Positions 4,343 through 24,794 of a stretch of 26,385 bases of DNA are shown in pieces; positions within the stretch are counted from its first letter, which is position 1, and every line of letters starts with the position of its first letter. Made by a program: the position numbers and the translations under genes. A model generated the notes under the pieces. It searched no databases and had not been told where the DNA came from. It saw only the letters and a program-made list of their open reading frames with translations. Source of the DNA: a virus; the IMG/VR virus record IMGVR_UViG_3300008113_001181, positions 1 to 26,385 of that record; one strand, 5' to 3'.

Positions 4343-4663
4343 ATGGCATTTGAAAAGAACGATAAGCGAATCAATAGAGCAGGTAGACCGGCTGGTGCAT
4401 TGAACCGAAGCACGGAGATGATGAAACTATCATTAGCTCGTGCTACAAATAAAGTAATGGATAACCTACCATCACTAATGGAGGAGATGATGAAGAAAGA
4501 CCCGAAGGGAGCAGTAGACATCACACTTAAAATGTTAGAGTTCCATTTACCTAAACAAAGTAGAATGGAATTGAAAGCAGAAGTAGAACAAAGAATACAG
4601 CAAATATCGGTAAACATTAATCAAAAGGTAGTAGATGCATCTGGAAGTCAACACAACGATTAG
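4343..4663 (+). CDS. terS: Terminase small subunit-like protein
   Basis: This 106-residue protein starts with a basic segment, KRINRAGRPAGALNRST (residues 8-24), which resembles the GRP-type DNA-binding start of DUF5681-like phage proteins that lie just before terminase genes. The rest is helical and ends in a coiled-coil-like, Gln-rich stretch (ELKAEVEQRIQQISVNINQ) suited to forming a ring. A terminase small subunit recognises viral DNA and brings it to the large subunit. Its last 29 bases overlap the start of the large-subunit gene, strong support for the assignment, although sequence identity within this family is low. Confidence 0.7.
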   Translation: MAFEKNDKRINRAGRPAGALNRSTEMMKLSLARATNKVMDNLPSLMEEMMKKDPKGAVDITLKMLEFHLPKQSRMELKAEVEQRIQQISVNINQKVVDASGSQHND

Positions 4664-5798
4664 TTATAAGCACATAGAGGATTGCCCTACTAGAGTTTGC
4701 CATTTGGTTGGTGGTAGCCGTAGTGGTAAAACATACGCTGCACTTCAATGGCTTATCGTACAAGCGCTTCAAAAGAAAGAGTTGATAACTATTGTAAGGA
4801 AAACAATACCATCGCTTAAAAGGACTGTAATGAAGGATTTCAAAGACCTGATGCAGACGATGGGTATATGGAATGAGAATGAGTTTAACATATCGGACAG
4901 AACATATACATTCTATAATGATTCACAAATACAATTCATCAGTACGGATAACGCAGAGAAGCTGAGAGGTGTTAAATCAAACATACTATGGATAGAAGAA
5001 GCATCCGAAGTAGATTCAGAATCATACCTACAATTACAAATCCGTACAACAGGAAAAATCATTCTAAGTTATAACCCTACAGTATCTCCATGGCATTGGT
5101 TAAGAGAGATGCAGGATTGTACACGCTACTTCACATCATACAAAGATAATCCTTATTTGGAAAAGAGTGTGATTAGAGCATTGGAAGACCTGAAGAATAC
5201 AAACATTAAAGCATATCAGGTATACACAAAGGGTGAGTACACAACAAACGATAAAGCAATCTTTGAATTTGAATTAGTAGAGTGGTTACCGGATGAAGCA
5301 GAGTTTGTGGCATGGGGATTGGACTTTGGATATGCTAATGACCCGAACGCATTGGTGAGTGTATGGAAGCTAAATGGTAATGAGCTATACATCTTAGAAC
5401 ACTGCTATGAGAAGGGAATGGTGACAAACGAAATAACCGATATGTTGAAGAAAGCAGTGAGTGGTAATGAGGAGATATGGGCGGATAGTAGTGAACCAAG
5501 ACTAATAGAAGAAATTCGTAGAGCTGGATTTAATATAAAGCCGGTAACGAAAGGTAAGGATAGTATTAACTTTGGTATTGGTGTATTGCAGAACTATAAG
5601 ATAAAGATACCTAAGAGTTGTCAGAACCTAATCAATGAGTTCTATTCGTATGAGTGGGAGACAGATAGGTTTGGTAAGATATTAGATAGACCGGTGGATT
5701 TTAACAACCACCTTTTAGATGCTGCTCGTTATGTGGCAATGATGAAGTTATCACAAAAAGCAACGGCAGTTGGAAAATATGTAATTAGTATAAAATAA
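4635..5798 (+). CDS. terL: Terminase large subunit (packaging ATPase-nuclease)
   Basis: This 387-residue protein has all key parts of a phage packaging motor. The Walker A motif GGSRSGKT is at residues 26-33, Walker B ILWIEE at 117-122, and the coupling motif SYNP at 145-148. The RNase H-like nuclease shows acidic residues in WGLDFGYANDP (D230), IWADSSEP (D284) and HLLDAARY (D362). It resembles the PBSX/Terminase_3 group and is near the short end of the usual length, without evident truncation. It acts at the portal of the empty head, using ATP to pump DNA and cutting it. The chosen start overlaps the small-subunit gene by 29 bases. Confidence 0.95.
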   Translation: MHLEVNTTISYKHIEDCPTRVCHLVGGSRSGKTYAALQWLIVQALQKKELITIVRKTIPSLKRTVMKDFKDLMQTMGIWNENEFNISDRTYTFYNDSQIQFISTDNAEKLRGVKSNILWIEEASEVDSESYLQLQIRTTGKIILSYNPTVSPWHWLREMQDCTRYFTSYKDNPYLEKSVIRALEDLKNTNIKAYQVYTKGEYTTNDKAIFEFELVEWLPDEAEFVAWGLDFGYANDPNALVSVWKLNGNELYILEHCYEKGMVTNEITDMLKKAVSGNEEIWADSSEPRLIEEIRRAGFNIKPVTKGKDSINFGIGVLQNYKIKIPKSCQNLINEFYSYEWETDRFGKILDRPVDFNNHLLDAARYVAMMKLSQKATAVGKYVISIK

Positions 5799-6823: not shown

Positions 6824-7453
6824 ATGAAAAAAGAAATTAAAATCACAGTACCAACTAAATGGTCAGCAGTTACACTTAAACAATACCTAGCACTACAAAG
6901 AGATTTGAAAGTGTATGGTGATGATGAGAATGCTTATGTAGCATGTTTGTTACATCACCTATGTGGATTCTCAGCGGAGTATCTGCATGGATTGGATACT
7001 GAAACCTTTATTAAGATTAAGAAAGACCTTACAGGCTTTATGACTAATACTAATAGTGACTTACAAAGGTTTATTAAAATTGACGGGGTAGAGTATGGTT
7101 TTGAACCTAACCTATCAAAAATGGCGTATGGTGCATATTTGGATATTACAAAGCATGATACATTTACGATTGATGAGAATTGGGCAAAGATAATGAGTAT
7201 CCTTTATAGACCTGTAAAGAGAAAGGGAATGGGAACGTATGAGATAGAAGAATACACAGGCAAAGATAATGAAGCCCTATTCTTAGAAGTTCCTATGGAT
7301 GTACATTACGGAGCATTGTTTTTTTTTGTTCGTTTATTAACGGCCTTACCGAGCGTTATCCTGAAATCTATGATGGATTCGGAGAAGCTCCCTCCGAGCA
7401 TCAAATCCGTTTTGGAAAGAAGTGGAAAAATTACAGCTCAGTTATCCAGTTAG
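6824..7453 (+). CDS. Tail assembly chaperone-like protein, zero-frame product
   Basis: The 209-residue protein contains LKQYLALQRDLKVYGDDENA, a middle segment IDGVEYGFEPNLSKMAYGAY, and MSILYRPVKRKG followed by YEIEEYTGKD. I recognise this layout from Bacteroidota phage proteins near tail genes, usually left hypothetical but resembling tail assembly chaperones. The codons for residues 166-168 form a run of nine T (7319-7327), where a -1 shift opens a long extension. After the run, the zero frame continues 41 residues and ends LERSGKITAQLSS. In known systems the short and long chaperones bind the tape-measure protein during tail building. No tape-measure gene is visible here, so the role is moderately supported. 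Confidence 0.65.
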   Translation: MKKEIKITVPTKWSAVTLKQYLALQRDLKVYGDDENAYVACLLHHLCGFSAEYLHGLDTETFIKIKKDLTGFMTNTNSDLQRFIKIDGVEYGFEPNLSKMAYGAYLDITKHDTFTIDENWAKIMSILYRPVKRKGMGTYEIEEYTGKDNEALFLEVPMDVHYGALFFFVRLLTALPSVILKSMMDSEKLPPSIKSVLERSGKITAQLSS

Positions 7454-7590
7454 CTGGTGGAGATATAATGAAAATGGATGAAGTAACTACATTGCCATTA
7501 GAACAATGCTTATTATTCCTTGCGTATAACTCGGATTACAATTACTTACAAAACCTACTACACAAAGAAGTTTTGGCAAGAAACAAATAG
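6824..7590 (+). CDS. Frameshifted long product of the tail chaperone-like gene
   Basis: A -1 shift at the nine-T run (7319-7327) would join residues 1-168 to 87 codons of the -1 frame (7327-7587), ending at TAG 7588-7590, a 255-residue product. The -1 frame has no stop from the run onward and encodes convincing protein: FGKKWKNYSSVIQLAGGD, then MKMDEVTTLPLEQCLLFLAY. This resembles the companion protein that follows chaperone-like genes in related phages. The only ATG in the extension is at 7468, too late to make the whole domain. About 126 bases code in both frames. This copies the G/GT arrangement of lambda and many tailed phages. Confidence 0.65.
7319..7327 (+). promoter_or_regulatory. Slippery run of nine T for -1 frameshift
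   Basis: Zero-frame codons here are TTT TTT TTT after TTG and before GTT. The run contains the heptamer T-TTT-TTT, on which paired tRNAs can slip back one base and pair again fully. A 6-base stem, TCGGAG (7379-7384) with CTCCGA (7392-7397), lies about 50 bases downstream, farther than usual for a stimulator, so its role is doubtful. Confidence 0.6.
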
Positions 7591-7917: not shown

Positions 7918-9663
7918 ATGTCTCAATTAAATAAAACACAATTAGAGCAACAAAACCAAACCAGCTTTCCTAATAATAATGCTGGGTTTATTACTCCATC
8001 AATACTAAGAGGATTCAATACAGATATGATTGATAGCTTGGTTGATGAAGGTGAGTATAATATAAATTCAGCTTCATTCTCAGGAAGTATTGCAGCATTG
8101 CAGAATTTTAGTTCTTCATTGGATGGACCTTTTGCAACTCAAGCAGAATTAACTCAAACTGCATCAATACTACAAGCTGACATTAATACTAAAGCAACTG
8201 TAACTGGTAGTAATAAGTTCGCAGGTTCTCAAACTATTTCAGGTTCTATTTTCCTTTCATCATCCGTAGTAGGTGACCCACATCAGATTGGTAATACATC
8301 AGGTGGTGACTTGTTTATAGCAGGTGCAGCTGGAGCAGATGTTGTTTTAGAATCAAATAGTACATTTACTATTAATGCAAACAATGGTGTAACAATTAAC
8401 TCAACACTAAATGTGGATGATTTATTAATAGCAGAGCAAGGATTAATCGTAACAGGCTCTCCTTACAATGCAGTAGATGTTCAGGGTGGATTGCATTTAA
8501 TGGGTGGTAACGTAAAGGTGACAGGTTCGGCATTTATCTATGGTAATTTAGAAATGCAATACGATGCGGCTGGTAATGGTATCATCCGTTCAAATGAGAT
8601 TACATCATCTAATATGAGAACAAACAACTTAGAGGTGACAGCATCTTTAAGAGTATCAGGTTCAACTACAATAACAGGTAGTACAAACATATTAGGTAAC
8701 ACATCTATAACAGGTAACATAACTGGAAGTAGCAACTTAAAGGTAGGTGGACATGTATCAGCAAGTGGTGGAGTAAATGCACAGGGTGGTGGTACTTTTA
8801 CTGGAAATTTAGTTGTAGGTGATGTAGGTACATTTAGTGGATTAGGAACAAACGTAATGTCTGGTTCTCTAATCATTAATCAAAACTTAACTGTATTAGG
8901 TAGTTCATCGGTAAACTATATTACATCTTCTCAATTATCTATTGGAACAAATATTATATCAGTAAACACACAAACGCCAGGTGTAAGATTTGGTGGATTA
9001 GTTGTAAACGATAGTGGCTCATTACCACAAAACTCAGGTTCATTATTTTATGATTCGGTTGAAAATCGTTGGATTTCCATACACACATTAGGTGCAGGAA
9101 CTACATCTTCATTATTCATATTAGGACCTGAAACATATAACAATATAGGTAATGAAACAGGCATAGCAACAAACACAATACCAAAAGGAATTGATAACGG
9201 AGAGCGTATCGGTCCATCATCAATAGTAGATAACGGAACTGAAATACAATTAGGTAATGCAGTTAGATTCGGAAATGGTGTGACTGGTTCATTAAACGTA
9301 CAAGGTGCATTCACTGCTTCATTAAGAGATGGATATGCATGGGTAGGTGTTAATGGTACGGCAGCATTAGTTGCAACATCATCTATTCAGGGTGTACAAT
9401 TTCCTTACACTGGTTCGGCATCAATAACAGGTTCACTTAAAGTAGTTGGTAAAGTAGAGGTAACAAGCTCTTTCTTACCACAAATATTAAGCGGTAGCAC
9501 ATCAGGTTCTTTAATAGGTAATTTAGGTGTATCATCAACAATACCTAAAGTAAATAATATTGTATCTCTAACACAGTACAAATGGTTCAGGAGGTACTTC
9601 GGGTGTAAGTGGCACAAGCGGAGTAAATGGTACGAGTGGTGTGAATGGTACAAACGGAGTTAA
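7918..9663 (+). CDS. Repeat-rich tail fiber, 3' end out of frame
   Basis: The 581-residue protein is built of short Ser/Thr/Gly/Val repeats such as TITGSTNILGNTSITGN, which suggest a beta-helical or trimeric fiber. The first 50 residues are less repetitive and may attach to the tail. Residues 548-554 read NIVSLTQ, which matches HIVTLTE in the next reading frame. From about codon 555 the composition changes abruptly to Trp, Lys, Arg and Cys (YKWFRRYFGCKWHKR), plainly the wrong frame of collagen-like codons. So the true gene probably continues, by a +1 shift near 9574-9581, into the frame ending at 10963. Mutation, assembly error or real frameshift cannot be told apart here. Confidence 0.75.
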   Translation: MSQLNKTQLEQQNQTSFPNNNAGFITPSILRGFNTDMIDSLVDEGEYNINSASFSGSIAALQNFSSSLDGPFATQAELTQTASILQADINTKATVTGSNKFAGSQTISGSIFLSSSVVGDPHQIGNTSGGDLFIAGAAGADVVLESNSTFTINANNGVTINSTLNVDDLLIAEQGLIVTGSPYNAVDVQGGLHLMGGNVKVTGSAFIYGNLEMQYDAAGNGIIRSNEITSSNMRTNNLEVTASLRVSGSTTITGSTNILGNTSITGNITGSSNLKVGGHVSASGGVNAQGGGTFTGNLVVGDVGTFSGLGTNVMSGSLIINQNLTVLGSSSVNYITSSQLSIGTNIISVNTQTPGVRFGGLVVNDSGSLPQNSGSLFYDSVENRWISIHTLGAGTTSSLFILGPETYNNIGNETGIATNTIPKGIDNGERIGPSSIVDNGTEIQLGNAVRFGNGVTGSLNVQGAFTASLRDGYAWVGVNGTAALVATSSIQGVQFPYTGSASITGSLKVVGKVEVTSSFLPQILSGSTSGSLIGNLGVSSTIPKVNNIVSLTQYKWFRRYFGCKWHKRSKWYEWCEWYKRS

Positions 9664-9834
9664 TGGAACGAATGGTGCGAATGGCTCATCCGGTACTTCT
9701 GGATTCAATGGTGCACCTGGTAACCCTGGTTCATCAGGAACTTCTGGTACAAGCGGTGTGAGCGGAACTAGTGGAGTGAGTGGCACATCAGGCGTAAATG
9801 GAACATCAGGTTCATCAGGTACATCTGGAGAATC
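9584..9834 (+). repeat. Collagen-like GGnACnAGyGG-type DNA repeats
   Basis: Nine-base units encoding Gly-x-y triplets, mostly GTSG and NGTNG, run through this stretch. Such repeats gain or lose units readily and are difficult to assemble. The frame break of the fiber gene lies at the left edge of this block. Confidence 0.75.
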
Positions 9835-10963
9835 TCAACAATATACAACAACATCAACTACTTCTATTTCAATAGGAAGTGTTGGTAACAATAGAACAAT
9901 AACGGTATCAGCTGGATTAGATTATACGGTAGGACAACCTATGGTATGTGCTTACGATGTGAGCAACTATATGGAAGGTATCGTAGTATCTTACAATGAT
10001 ATTACGGGTTCAATGACATTCCAAATTACTTTAGCAGTTGGTAGTGGAACATACGCAAGCTGGACTGTAAACTTACAAGCAGCAACTGGACCAGCTGGTT
10101 CTTCTGGAACTTCAGGTACTTCATTCCTTCCAACTTATATTGGTAATGTATCAATTACAGGTTCAGTAAATGTATTAGGTTCAATAGGAGTACAAGTAGG
10201 AACTGAATCAGGTTCAGTTGTTGACAATAGAAACGATACATTCCCATCAGTACCTAGAATTGAACACATTGTAACTCTAACTGAAGCAGAATACGCAGGT
10301 ATAGCAGTACCGGATGTGAATACATTATACATCATATCAGGTTCAAACATAGTTGATACTACATTCCCTTATACAGGTAGTGCACAAATCACAGGTTCAT
10401 TAGGAGTAACTGGTTCAGTTAATTTCTTTGGTGGTGATTTCAAAGTTACTGACCAAAATAGAAATGGTGAATTTGATGTAGATTTCTTTAAGGTAAAGAC
10501 AGTTAGTGGAGCACAATTTACTGGAAGCTTAAAATCACAAGGTGGATTTACAGGTTCTCTATTAGGTAACGCAACAACAGCCACTAATGGATTCCCATTC
10601 ACTGGTTCAGCAGTTGTATCTGGTTCAGTAATCATAACTGGTTCAGCACAAGGTAATGTAGTTGCGGTGACAGTAGCAAGTAACACAGCATCAATTGATA
10701 TGAATGCTGGAAACTTCTTTACGGTAACATTAGCAAATAGTGCAACAACACACTTTAATGTGACAAACTTAAACCCTGGTGAGAACGCAAACATATTTGT
10801 AACAACTGGTACTATATCATCCGCATCATTCAGCAGTAATGTTAAACAGCCATCAGGTTCGTTTTACTTACCATCGTCTGGTAGTGGTGTAACCGATGTA
10901 TTATCATTAGTAGCATTGAATTCAACAAATGCATATATTGTAAACGCAAAAAGATTTATATAA
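9641..10963 (+). CDS. Collagen-like repeat tail fiber, continuation of the preceding gene
   Basis: The frame is open from 9572 with no ATG until about 9940; the GTG at 9641 is the only early start and lies inside the repeats, so independent initiation is doubtful. Residues about 1-65 are collagen-like G-x-y repeats (NGTNGVNGTNG, GVSGTSGVSGTSG). A compact domain follows (about 70-150), another GSSGTSGTS stretch, then PSVPRIEHIVTLTEAEYAGI and more ITGS-type repeats as in the upstream fiber, ending in a beta-rich tip. Together with 7918-9663 this would make a fiber of roughly 1,000 residues. Its stop TAA overlaps the next ATG by one base, so the downstream part is probably still translated. Confidence 0.65.
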   Translation: MNGTNGVNGTNGANGSSGTSGFNGAPGNPGSSGTSGTSGVSGTSGVSGTSGVNGTSGSSGTSGESQQYTTTSTTSISIGSVGNNRTITVSAGLDYTVGQPMVCAYDVSNYMEGIVVSYNDITGSMTFQITLAVGSGTYASWTVNLQAATGPAGSSGTSGTSFLPTYIGNVSITGSVNVLGSIGVQVGTESGSVVDNRNDTFPSVPRIEHIVTLTEAEYAGIAVPDVNTLYIISGSNIVDTTFPYTGSAQITGSLGVTGSVNFFGGDFKVTDQNRNGEFDVDFFKVKTVSGAQFTGSLKSQGGFTGSLLGNATTATNGFPFTGSAVVSGSVIITGSAQGNVVAVTVASNTASIDMNAGNFFTVTLANSATTHFNVTNLNPGENANIFVTTGTISSASFSSNVKQPSGSFYLPSSGSGVTDVLSLVALNSTNAYIVNAKRFI

Positions 10964-12220: not shown

Positions 12221-12475
12221 ATGTTTAGAATTAAAGCAGGTGGTAGAAATATAAATGCATCCGTAGGTAGCGGTACGCAAGTTAATGCTTCAAAGAGTGC
12301 ACCTATATTTGTATCATTAAGTACAACTACTTCAACAACAACAATATTACCAACAACAACAACTACTTCAACTTCAACAACATCAACAACTACATTTCCA
12401 TATCCTTGGATTTTAGCATCTGCTAAATGGAATGATTATGGTGTGTGGAAAGATGATTCAATTTGGATAGATTAA
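12221..12475 (+). CDS. Short protein with Thr/Ser-rich linker
   Basis: This 84-residue protein has three parts: a basic N-terminus (MFRIKAGGRNINASVGSG), a Thr/Ser-rich linker at residues 34-59, and a Trp-rich C-terminus (YPWILASAKWNDYGVWKDD). No catalytic motif is seen. The linker resembles mucin-like or surface-protein stalks and recurs in three other genes of this window. The short N-terminus could anchor it to the virion while the aromatic end binds a partner or a host sugar. The role is inferred from structure and position only. Confidence 0.65.
   Translation: MFRIKAGGRNINASVGSGTQVNASKSAPIFVSLSTTTSTTTILPTTTTTSTSTTSTTTFPYPWILASAKWNDYGVWKDDSIWID
12320..12397 (+). repeat. Thr/Ser codon repeat (linker 1)
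   Basis: Nearly pure ACA/ACT/TCA codons encode a Thr/Ser linker. The low-complexity DNA is closely related to the other four linker blocks and is prone to slippage and recombination. Confidence 0.7.
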
Positions 12476-12487
12476 AATTAATATAAT

Positions 12488-13009
12488 ATGCCATTACAAA
12501 CAGTAAATAACGGAGATACAGGAGCAGTAGCAAGAGCAAAAATAAATGCTGCTATTGATGCAATTAACGCAATGACTAGTACAACAACGACTAGTACATC
12601 TACAACAACTGCACCAACTACAACGAGTAGCACAACTACATCTACATCTACTACTACTCAACCAACAACTACAACGAGTAGCACAACTACTTCATCAACA
12701 AGTACAACTACGATGCCAACATCATACAATTATCAAATAAGTAATTGTGCTGGAGGTTCATCATATACGATAACAACTTCTATGTTTTTAAGTTCAGCAC
12801 AGGTTTATAAGTTTTTTGCACCTGGTGCACCTTATGATACTAACGCATGTTGGACAGTAACTCCTTCTGGAATGGGTGGAACATTCTCAACTGTGATGAA
12901 CACATACGGAAGTTGTATTGAATGTACATCTGGAACTACAACAACAAGCAGTACAAGTACAACAACTTATACTCCTCCCCCAACAACTTCAACAACAACA
13001 ATGCCATAA
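12488..13009 (+). CDS. Modular adhesin-like protein with two Thr-rich linkers
   Basis: The 173-residue protein opens with MPLQTVNNGDTGAVARAKIN, like the attachment start of many phage tail proteins. A Thr/Ser-rich linker follows (residues 30-76), then a small domain (79-147) with C87, C121, C143 and C146, including CWTV and YGSCIEC. A second Thr-rich linker with a PPP step ends the protein. I have seen similar four-Cys, beta-rich modules in Bacteroidota phage tail proteins, without a known ligand. It is probably a virion-attached binding module on a flexible stalk. That it ends in a linker suggests a lost or exchanged C-terminal domain. Confidence 0.65.
   Translation: MPLQTVNNGDTGAVARAKINAAIDAINAMTSTTTTSTSTTTAPTTTSSTTTSTSTTTQPTTTTSSTTTSSTSTTTMPTSYNYQISNCAGGSSYTITTSMFLSSAQVYKFFAPGAPYDTNACWTVTPSGMGGTFSTVMNTYGSCIECTSGTTTTSSTSTTTYTPPPTTSTTTMP
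12575..12715 (+). repeat. Thr/Ser codon repeat (linker 2)
   Basis: This block has internal near-copies: ACTACAACGAGTAGCACAAC occurs from about 12617 and again from about 12667, about 50 bases apart, showing recent internal duplication. Confidence 0.65.
12929..13006 (+). repeat. Thr/Ser codon repeat (linker 3)
   Basis: A Thr/Ser stretch with a short Pro run sits at the very end of the gene, only a few bases before the next start. Its terminal position is unusual for a linker. Confidence 0.65.
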
Positions 13010-14105: not shown

Positions 14106-14918
14106 ATGTTAAATCTAAACTTAAACATATTAGGTGCAGGACAAAGAAGTAGTATTGGAGCAGGGCCGGATATTCAGCCTACAACCACTACTACATCAAC
14201 TACGTCTACAACTACAACAAGTACAACAACTTCTACAACTACAACAACTTCAACTACAACAACTGTAGCACCAACTGCAGTAGAGTATCTATTAGTTGCC
14301 GGTGGTGGTGGTGGACGTAGAAAACAATCACTTGCAGACCCAACATCATCAGGTGGCGCTGGTGGATTGTTATCTGGTTCATTAAATGTATTCTCTGGAG
14401 CATACGATATTGTTATTGGAGCAGGTGGAGATGGTGGTAATGAATATAGTGACCAAGGTAAGCAAGGTAACAATTCAGTACTTCAAAGAGGTGGCACAGT
14501 AATAACATCATTTGGTGGTGGTGGAACTTGTCAAAGTGGTGGTTCTGGAGCAGGAGCACAAGTTGGACAATGTGGTGGAGCAGCTGGTACTCCGGGACAA
14601 GGTAATTCAGGTGGACCTAATAGTGGCACAGGTGGTGGAGCTGGTTCAACAGGTGATGCTGGTGGATTGGGAGCTGCATGGGTTGATGGAGTAACATACG
14701 CAAGAGGTGGAAGTCAAGGAGGTGGATATGGTGGAGCTAATACAGGTAATGGTGGTGGTGCAGGAGCAGCTGCTGGTAACTTTGGTGGCAGCGGTGGTTC
14801 TGGTATTTGTATTATAAGATACCCTGGTACACCTAACGCAACTGGTGGTGATATTACTCAATCAGGCGGATACACTTATCATACATTCTTAGCAGCAGGT
14901 ACATTTACTTGGAATTAA
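14106..14918 (+). CDS. Glycine-rich adhesin-like protein 3 with Thr-rich linker
   Basis: The 270-residue protein has a short N-terminus (MLNLNLNILGAGQRSSIGAG), a Thr/Ser-rich linker (residues 25-54), then VEYLLVAGGGGGRRKQ and a glycine-rich domain to the end. The end reads GSGICIIRYPG, NATGGDITQSGGYTYHTFLAAGTF. It thus combines two modules that are separate in the neighbours: the linker of 12221 and 12488 and the glycine-rich domain of 10963 and 13013. A short anchor, flexible stalk and binding tip is the likely design. It is followed 11 bases later by a MAHFA domain, as glycine-rich protein 1 is. Confidence 0.75.
   Translation: MLNLNLNILGAGQRSSIGAGPDIQPTTTTTSTTSTTTTSTTTSTTTTTSTTTTVAPTAVEYLLVAGGGGGRRKQSLADPTSSGGAGGLLSGSLNVFSGAYDIVIGAGGDGGNEYSDQGKQGNNSVLQRGGTVITSFGGGGTCQSGGSGAGAQVGQCGGAAGTPGQGNSGGPNSGTGGGAGSTGDAGGLGAAWVDGVTYARGGSQGGGYGGANTGNGGGAGAAAGNFGGSGGSGICIIRYPGTPNATGGDITQSGGYTYHTFLAAGTFTWN
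14178..14267 (+). repeat. Thr/Ser codon repeat (linker 4)
   Basis: This linker joins a short N-terminus directly to a glycine-rich domain, a junction that would be expected if linkers act as recombination points between modules. Confidence 0.65.
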
Positions 14919-15742: not shown

Positions 15743-15764
15743 TTAAACAAAAAAAAAGATTGAC

Positions 15765-16718
15765 ATGAGAAAAAATCAAAACTTTGCTCAGCCAGTAATT
15801 ACTACAACTTACGCAGGTGAGTTCGCAGGTAAGTATATAGCTGCAGCTTTGTTATCAGCTAGAACGCTTGATAACAAATACATCACAATCATGCCAAACG
15901 TTAAATTCAAATCAGTAATCCAAAGAATTGCTGTTGATTCTATCGTTAATGATGCATCTTGTGATTTCACAACTTCTGGTACTGTAGCTCTTACTGAAAG
16001 AATCTTAGAACCAAAAGAATTGCAAGTAAACTTACAATTATGTAAGCAAGAATTCGTAGATAGCTGGGAAGCTTTACAATTGGGCTATAGCGCATTTGAT
16101 ACTATCCCTGCATCATTTACTGATTTCTTAATCTCTTATGTAGGTGGTAAAGTTGCTGAAGCAACTGAAATCTCTATCTGGCAAGGTAACAGCGCAACAA
16201 ACGGACAATTCTCTGGTTTGTATAACGCATTATCTTCATCAGTAGTAGCTGGTGGTGTAAACGCTCCTGTAACAGCTTCTGTTTCTGGTTCTATTACATC
16301 TGCAAACGTATTATCTGCATTAGACAGTTTATACAACGCAATCCCTCAGACTGTGTATGGTAAGGAAGATTTAACTATCTACATCCCTACTAACGTAGCT
16401 AAGGCTTACCAACAAGCATTATCTGGCGGAACAGCTGGAGCAAATGGTTGGAACAACCAAATGAATGTGGGTGAGAAGCCATTGAACTTCCAAGGAGTTG
16501 AATTGGCATTATGTCCTGGTCTTGCATCTTCAGCAATGGTAGCAGCACAAAAATCTAACTTATTCTTCGGAACTGGTTTGATGAGTGATTACAACCAAGT
16601 TAAAGTGTTAGACATGGAAGACTTAGATGGTTCTCAAAACTTTAGAATCATTATGAGATACACTGCTGATACTGAATATGGTATCGGTAATGACATCGCT
16701 ATTTACAAAAACTATTAA
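15765..16718 (+). CDS. Major capsid protein
   Basis: The 317-residue protein contains YAGEFAGKYIAAALLSARTL, TIMPNVKFKSVIQRI, the Cys-containing stretch NDASCDFTTSG, LEPKELQVNLQLCKQEFVDSW, and VGGKVAEATEISIWQG. This sequence of segments is typical of HK97-fold major capsid proteins of Bacteroidota phages, and the size is usual for the fold. It assembles the icosahedral head. It directly follows the candidate scaffold gene by 22 bases, with an A-run leader, and is followed by a strong hairpin. The assignment rests on pattern and context; the next candidate for capsid protein in the window is much less convincing. Confidence 0.75.
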   Translation: MRKNQNFAQPVITTTYAGEFAGKYIAAALLSARTLDNKYITIMPNVKFKSVIQRIAVDSIVNDASCDFTTSGTVALTERILEPKELQVNLQLCKQEFVDSWEALQLGYSAFDTIPASFTDFLISYVGGKVAEATEISIWQGNSATNGQFSGLYNALSSSVVAGGVNAPVTASVSGSITSANVLSALDSLYNAIPQTVYGKEDLTIYIPTNVAKAYQQALSGGTAGANGWNNQMNVGEKPLNFQGVELALCPGLASSAMVAAQKSNLFFGTGLMSDYNQVKVLDMEDLDGSQNFRIIMRYTADTEYGIGNDIAIYKNY

Positions 16719-23825: not shown

Positions 23826-24794
23826 ATGTCACAAATTATACCAATATACGTTCCAACTTACATTAGTTCCGTAGATTATCAACCGGCTAGGGTTTTACCA
23901 CGTTTACTATTCTATAATGGACAAGTAGATTGTGAAAGATTTTATGTGAAAGATGATAATAATGCAGCAAATGAAGTTAAGCAATTTCCTTATTTTGACA
24001 ATTACAATGTAGTATCAGGTTCTCAATTTCCTACAACAGGTTCTAACTCATTACTATTTTATAATGAATCAGCAGTTTATGGTGAAGTACCTTTTGAATC
24101 ATTATATTCTCAATATTGGCAAAACTATGTAGAATTGTTATATAACCCACGCACTAGATTGTTGAATGCTTCAGCAATTATTCCATTAGCAGATTATTTT
24201 AAGATGGAATTAAATGATGTAGTACAATTTAGAGGTAACTACTATCATCTTCGTGCGATTAACGATTATAATTTGAAGAATGGAGAATGCCAAATACAAT
24301 TGCTTGGCCCTATATTACCAGATGCGTTACCATTTGCTCAACCTGTTGTACCAACAACAACAACCACAAGTACAACTTCTACTACAACTACAAGTACCAC
24401 AACCAGTACTTCTACAACTTCTACTACAACTTCAACGACTACTACAACTAGTGGTGGTGCTACTTTAGCATGGAGTTTTAGTGAAACAGGTGGAGCTAGA
24501 GGACAAATGGATTTATATGTAAATGGTTCAATTGTTGAAAGTAGAAGTATTACATCATCAGGAACATATACTGTTTACGTTGGTGATACAATTAATGTTC
24601 AAGTAACTGCTGATGATTGTGGTTCACCTAACAACTATTCAAATGCATATTGTACAGGTATTATAACTGATGCAGATTGTAATCCAAGCGGTACGGCAAG
24701 TATCTTTACATCAGTTTATACTGTTGTAAGTGGTGATATTGGAGACACATTAAACTTAGATTGTTTTGCAGCATGTGATGGAGGCTGTTTATAA
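23826..24794 (+). CDS. Tail tip protein C-terminal part with Thr-rich linker and adhesin domain
   Basis: Residues 1-170 contain RVLPRLLFYNGQ, YGEVPFESLYSQYWQNYVEL, LYNPRTRLLNASAIIPLADY and LNDVVQFRGNYYHLRAINDY. This resembles the usual C-terminus of the long tail protein whose N-terminal part is encoded just upstream. A Thr/Ser linker (177-209) follows, then a small beta-rich domain (211-322) with cysteines near its end (DDCGSPNNY, ADCNPSG, CFAACDGGC). The last domain is probably a host-binding module. The start is 10 bases after the preceding stop, with an A/T-rich leader, so the two halves are likely made together and might reassemble. Confidence 0.65.
   Translation: MSQIIPIYVPTYISSVDYQPARVLPRLLFYNGQVDCERFYVKDDNNAANEVKQFPYFDNYNVVSGSQFPTTGSNSLLFYNESAVYGEVPFESLYSQYWQNYVELLYNPRTRLLNASAIIPLADYFKMELNDVVQFRGNYYHLRAINDYNLKNGECQIQLLGPILPDALPFAQPVVPTTTTTSTTSTTTTSTTTSTSTTSTTTSTTTTTSGGATLAWSFSETGGARGQMDLYVNGSIVESRSITSSGTYTVYVGDTINVQVTADDCGSPNNYSNAYCTGIITDADCNPSGTASIFTSVYTVVSGDIGDTLNLDCFAACDGGCL
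24354..24452 (+). repeat. Thr/Ser codon repeat (linker 5)
   Basis: This is about 10 kb from the other four linkers but has the same codon pattern (ACA/ACT/TCT, few other residues), including near-copies of ACAACTTCTACTACAACT. It joins a tail-tip domain to an adhesin-like domain. Confidence 0.65.

Follow-up and report, generated by a model that had tools for sequence, protein, structure and literature searches.

A putative phage tail assembly chaperone made in two lengths by a conserved -1 frame switch on nine T, most likely through RNA polymerase slippage

Frame switching in tail chaperones is textbook ribosomal recoding. Expression of a gene of the tail module in two lengths by a -1 shift is a hallmark of the tail assembly chaperones (TACs), whose genes are usually, though not universally, found between those for the tail tube and the tape measure protein. 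The same two proteins can result from a ribosome that steps back one base or from an RNA polymerase that adds one U, and U-tracts are good slip sites for ribosomes too. A 3' stimulatory structure is common in programmed -1 ribosomal frameshifting but is not required for it. In phage P2 and its relatives the ribosomal sites are T6G, T7G or T7C (PMC3091744, PMC3931495); a check of the P2 sequence gave T TTT TTG, a T6G site. The ribosomal shift of P2 is established, yet it has no stimulatory structure (PMC3091744), and chaperone genes of the HK97 type gave 6–7% frameshifting in a reporter (PMC3711429). For transcription, nine A or T residues is the length for efficient slippage of bacterial RNA polymerase in vivo (PMC5009743), and 'Tn, n > 8' has been given for transcriptional realignment (PMC3711429).

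The window, the whole stretch of 26,385 nt that was analyzed, contains on its + strand a zero-frame gene at 6824–7453 (ATG at 6824, stop at 7451–7453) for a TAC-like short product of 209 amino acids, with relatives in 355 loci. A run of nine T at 7319–7327 (+) is in phase with the zero-frame codons (TTG TTT TTT TTT GTT, with three Phe codons), and within it lies a single in-frame heptamer U UUU UUU, of the form X XXY YYZ, at 7321–7327 (+), which is present in every relative scored. In the -1 frame there is no stop between 7273 and the TAG at 7588–7590, and 87 codons lie 3' of the run. Read in this frame, the extension (7327–7590, +) forms the C-terminal domain of a fusion product of 255 amino acids, whose N-terminal 168 residues are common to the short and long forms, and 126 nt (7328–7453, +) are read in both the zero and the -1 frames, with the dual-coded stretch itself at 7328–7450 (+). 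The preliminary description had given the run, the 87 codons, the TAG, the 126-base overlap and the 255-residue product, and all of its coordinates are exact. By composition, a run of at least eight T is unremarkable in this AT-rich window (4 matches versus 5.8 expected), and the nine T at 7319–7327, the only intragenic A/T run of eight or more, stands out from chance by its conservation. An intergenic run of nine A was also observed at 15749–15757, in the short gap just 5' of an ORF at 15765 that probably encodes the major capsid protein, where it could affect initiation or reiterative transcription.

Relatives were gathered by IMG/VR scans using the N-terminal part (N-part) and the extension, and range from 100% down to about 25–30% identity. 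The set comprises 355 loci, from IMG/VR and from Nonlabens phage P12024. Profile HMMs for the two parts identified both halves in 349 of the 355; judging by their coordinates, the six loci with the N-part only appear to be truncated close to the run, where the contig stops. All 349 two-half loci have their extension in the -1 frame, and none of them has an in-frame fusion of the halves. At the junction there are nine T in 256 loci, ten in 90 and eleven in one, and no run shorter than nine was found among these 347 scored loci. The final table of runs excludes the other two loci, in which an upstream fragment scored better as the N-part match; in an earlier pass both were ordinary -1 cases with ten T. 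Some of the loci are overlapping stretches of one contig – 349 is therefore not the number of independent phages, and tests used distinct sequences or clusters. Most retrieval patterns do not touch the T run, although one of six in one scan (VFFCSFIN) is coded by it. The N-part scan patterns do not overlap the run, and its conservation is therefore not a selection effect.

The only cultured relatives found are the Nonlabens phages P12024S and P12024L, whose hosts are flavobacterial. Both have homologues of the two halves (28–31% identical) in the -1 relation, with nine T in the register CTT TTT TTT TAT. In P12024S the annotation treats the halves as separate hypothetical genes without relation to each other, gp38 and gp39 (L123:20001-20695), and the annotated start of gp39 falls within the extension, omitting its conserved first part. 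Because P12024S and P12024L infect a flavobacterium, the phage of the window probably infects Bacteroidota, in agreement with the earlier assignment. A first scan of GTDB genome contigs found no relatives; the alignment of the distant group was too variable to serve as a search query there.

The length of the run was compared with its register. For an in-frame heptamer, a run that starts at the first codon position must have nine T, one that starts at the second eight, and one that starts at the third seven. With L and R as the number of T's to the left and right of the in-frame U7, the (L,R) states seen were (2,0), (2,1), (1,1), (1,2), (0,2), (0,3) and (0,4), so that L+R is always at least 2, and the register has changed about 17 times on a tree made from the N-part only. 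In a permutation test each state was counted once per identity cluster, with L and R independent under the null. Runs shorter than nine were expected for 12.7 of 58 cluster-states at 60% identity (0/5000 permutations), 7.1 of 34 at 50% (0/5000 permutations) and 3.1 of 16 at 40% (P=0.001); at each level, none was seen. Independent pairs drawn from the tree were few, with L<2 going with R≥1 in 3 of 3 and L<1 with R≥2 in 4–6 of 6 (median p 0.03). Apart from the N-part tree, kinship was handled by clustering, with no model of sequence evolution.

Where L=2 and R=0, the amino acid column after the slip holds Cys, Ser or Tyr, and where L<2 it is always Leu or Phe; in register classes 1 and 2 the -1 frame always encodes Leu or Phe after the heptamer. 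As class 0 tolerates Cys, Ser or Tyr in this column, protein sequence does not obviously account for the extra T's. Substitution of TTC for TTT, silent in both frames and with a canonical heptamer kept, was found at none of 113 sites; the probability of such an absence by chance is 0.0002 with 90% clusters, 0.02 with 60%, 0.13 with 50% and 0.48 with 40%. In other genes of these loci there were three A/T runs of at least nine, versus 10.9 expected. There is no sign of a downstream RNA structure in 90 loci (mean z +0.26 over 60 nt and +0.33 over 100 nt), the z value downstream of the run in the window itself is -0.35, and no consensus fold 3' of the run was found across the relatives. This is weak evidence on mechanism, as P2, with an established ribosomal shift, lacks a structure too. 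The third frame is closed within 14 codons past the run in 347 of 347 loci, mostly within three. In the window the stop is at 7338–7340 (+). Such stops would quickly end the products of slips in the other direction.

The overlap bears marks of coding in two frames. Among 78 distinct sequences, the zero frame stays open for 38–58 codons past the slip, compared to a mean of 14.8 in sequences whose -1 frame had its synonymous codons shuffled, and the rate of third-position change is 0.233 in the overlap versus 0.368 and 0.398 in the single-coding parts. In six-codon bins, the observed/expected ratio of synonymous change is 0.24 at the slip, 0.50 just past it, and 0.11 in the most constrained block of the overlap, at 7399–7416 (+) in the window; elsewhere it is about 0.6–1.1, or roughly 0.8. 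The block reads HQIRFG in the -1 frame and SIKSVLE in the zero frame of the window. Across the relatives its -1 frame is HQ(I/V)(N/R)FG, and its zero frame starts SIKS(I/V)LE(K/R)SG, the stretch over which the tail that belongs to the short form alone is conserved best. Both halves of the gene are under purifying selection. Zero-frame amino acid identity over the whole overlap is 0.495, barely above the 0.48 of the third frame, and the claim of selection on the short tail is therefore a local one that rests on the synonymous block. The block is evidence that the C-terminus of the short form may itself be functional: it would be either a functional C-terminal peptide of that form or an RNA element.

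The identity of the protein was approached through profiles and predicted structures. The short form matches phrog_32199 (E 4e-13), a family of no assigned function, and the extensions of most other members (59 of 74) match phrog_38404, also without function. Of 71 diverse short forms, 40 match phrog_166, 'tail protein' (best 3.5e-5), nine match phrog_3140, 'tail assembly chaperone' (best 6e-4), and 24 match PF10109 (TAC_7; best 3.9e-4), the chaperone family of P2 gpE and Mu gp41. For single proteins these TAC family matches fall below the threshold, PF10109 is matched by none of the 32 distant members, and a comparison with Mu gp41 by hhalign was not significant. AlphaFold, run separately on the short form and on the extension, gave a pLDDT of 82 for the short form and a mean pLDDT of 82 for an all-helical extension. 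Foldseek found no fold match in the PDB for either, and the structural matches in BFVD were unannotated phage proteins. Flavobacterium phage 6H gp10 has a T6 run and matched weakly in structure (TM about 0.34), but was left out because its -1 frame stops right after the slip and a homology in sequence was not found.

The window is from the genome of a long-tailed phage, with a terminase, a portal and a neck protein, and ORF 16807 is a candidate for the major tail protein. The large terminase (4635–5798, +) is a constant upstream neighbor in the relatives, and the TAC-like gene is placed after terL/methyltransferase. In distant relatives it is directly 5' of tail-completion and neck-type genes. 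A sister contig, G001, encodes a tape-measure-like protein of 601 amino acids, named by its sequence features, with relatives in 10 of the 12 contigs examined (open frames of 500–794 codons); its counterpart would lie just past the end of the window. The TAC-like gene does not lie between the genes for the tail tube and the tape measure protein, and, as is uncommon among chaperones, it does not adjoin the latter – the distance to the tape measure gene is about 20 kb in G001 and about 5 kb in a second contig, G007. A Bacteroidota promoter pattern was not found above chance, and all of its matches were on the minus strand.

Other features of the window were noted. Two collagen-like (GTSG/GTNG) tail-fibre ORFs, 7918–9663 and 9641–10963, overlap in the window and appear to be one continuous ORF in G001 (L132:3-1835, L131:16204-17499), with the frame break in the window near 9570–9600, beside a GTNG tandem repeat. 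Linkers rich in Thr and Ser (TTTSTTTTS...), with short tandem repeats, are found in four ORFs: 12221–12475, 12488–13009, 14106–14918 and 23826–24794.

We propose that the gene encodes a TAC-like protein in two lengths by -1 recoding on the nine T, most likely by RNA polymerase slippage, a reading to which we assign a probability of roughly 0.55. RNA polymerase would slip on the T9/A9 duplex and add one U in a fraction of transcripts. The added U would put the extension in frame and give the 255-amino-acid long form, with its extra helical C-terminal domain, and transcripts without it would give the 209-amino-acid short form. The ribosome may add to this by slipping on the in-frame U UUU UUU. 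By analogy with lambda gpG and gpGT, the short form would coat or protect the tape measure protein and the long form would recruit tail-tube subunits. Transcription is, by slightly better than even odds, the level at which the switch takes place, and polymerase slippage is favored over purely ribosomal shifting; this preference is drawn from nucleotide patterns that are partly tied to amino acid constraint in two frames. The wider statement has an even chance of being right: that in a large family of aquatic tailed phages, with hosts that are probably Bacteroidota, the ratio of the two chaperone isoforms is set by programmed polymerase slippage on a length-conserved run of at least nine T and not by ribosomal frameshifting, with the dual-coded C-terminal peptide of the short isoform also selected.

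Several explanations would do away with the switch altogether, and the patterns in the relatives make them untenable. A sequencing or assembly error, or a decayed gene, in what is truly a continuous frame would suit the error-prone nature of homopolymers and the origin of the window in one record derived from a metagenome. The same -1 break nevertheless recurs in every one of the 349 loci, which come from many samples, and in the cultured P12024S and P12024L; runs of 9, 10 and 11 T all occur in the matching register; and both halves are under purifying selection, which makes error or decay exceedingly improbable. The annotation of P12024S agrees with two separate genes, the extension having its own start like gp39, but that start loses the conserved first part of the extension, and in 218 of the 347 loci there is no ATG, GTG or TTG in the -1 frame 5' of the extension's conserved block; we consider separate genes very improbable. 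Phase variation is equally so: nine T is prone to replication slippage, and slippage in the DNA could toggle a fused gene within the phage population, but no locus among the 349 is in the fused phase, with a run length giving one open frame. It is close to certain from the comparison of sequences that the frame switch is real and conserved. The claim of a programmed -1 switch with dual coding, made from the one sequence, has thus been borne out in related genomes, all 347 scored having runs of nine to eleven T. Relatives with one uninterrupted frame, or with separate genes and no slippery run, which would have spoken against that claim, were not found.

The agent of the switch and the nature of the protein are less settled. 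The shift could be purely ribosomal, a tandem slip of two tRNA-Phe on U UUU UUU like that of lambda gpGT and P2 E+E', with runs longer than seven kept only since both frames encode Phe or Leu there; this is a serious possibility, if one of somewhat under even odds. It accords with the in-frame heptamer in all relatives scored, with the ribosomal nature of the same architecture on T6G, T7G or T7C in P2-like phages, with the 6–7% reporter frameshifting of HK97-type TAC genes (PMC3711429), and with the constant Leu or Phe that in register classes 1 and 2 follows the heptamer. A purely ribosomal shift does not, however, lead one to expect a floor of nine T in total under a moving register; class 0 tolerates Cys, Ser or Tyr in the same column, TTC is missing from the A-site even at positions where both frames would read it silently, and neither the 90 loci nor the consensus fold gave a stimulator. 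The preliminary description had likened the shift to that of lambda. The -1 switch itself has held, but its agent need not be the ribosome, and the conservation of run length points at least as much to slippage of RNA polymerase. Under either mechanism, the recoding could also yield the two lengths of some tail or head-tail protein other than a chaperone. The lack of a significant PDB fold match for either part, the weakness of the family matches, and a position that does not adjoin the tape measure gene all favor this, but expression in two lengths by a -1 shift in the tail module is characteristic of TACs and the short forms match 'tail protein', 'tail assembly chaperone' and TAC_7 profiles. 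A protein other than a chaperone is therefore unlikely, and the gene probably works like a tail assembly chaperone. The earlier term 'tail chaperone-like' is supported by the architecture, the genome context and the weak TAC-family matches that profile searches gave for the short forms, as opposed to any proven homology with the lambda-type or P2-type chaperones.

The general kind of system is known. What is new is the length-conserved poly-T, the probable polymerase mechanism and the dual-coded tail of the short form; in the open-access literature searched, on chaperone frameshifts in Flavobacteri- or Cellulophaga-related papers and on slippage of polymerase in the tail genes of phages, we found no description of this family or of a T9 chaperone switch in such phages. 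With a family of several hundred environmental phages or more that keep nine or more T in any register, phage use of the transcription machinery becomes directly testable. The loci also define a family of tail-chaperone candidates that until now were 'hypothetical proteins', annotated as a pair of genes in the only cultured relatives found. A simple annotation rule can be given for it: an N domain, a run of 9–11 T, and a -1 extension.

The closest known systems include gp38 and gp39 of Nonlabens P12024S/L (Inhavirus), which are homologues of both halves with T9 and the -1 relation, and which differ in their annotation as two genes and in their register. P2 gpE and gpE+E' (PF10109) are likewise short and long products of a tail gene made by a -1 shift on a T run without a downstream RNA structure, and some members of the new family weakly match PF10109. 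However, P2 uses T TTT TTG (T6G; T7G or T7C in its relatives), where the new family always has at least nine T; the proteins of the new family are larger (209/255 versus 91/142 amino acids), with a longer overlap, and their gene is not beside the tape measure gene. Lambda gpG and gpGT are similarly a short chaperone and its -1 fusion to a C-terminal domain, in a phage with a long tail and a tape measure protein (PMC5009743); no sequence similarity to them was found, and the slippery sequence and the gene position are different. The dnaX of Thermus thermophilus, a case of transcriptional slippage, is a host replication gene, and its zero frame gives the long form, unlike that of the phage gene, but as in the new family a nine-base A/T run leads to products of two lengths, with stops close by in the other frames (PMC5009743).
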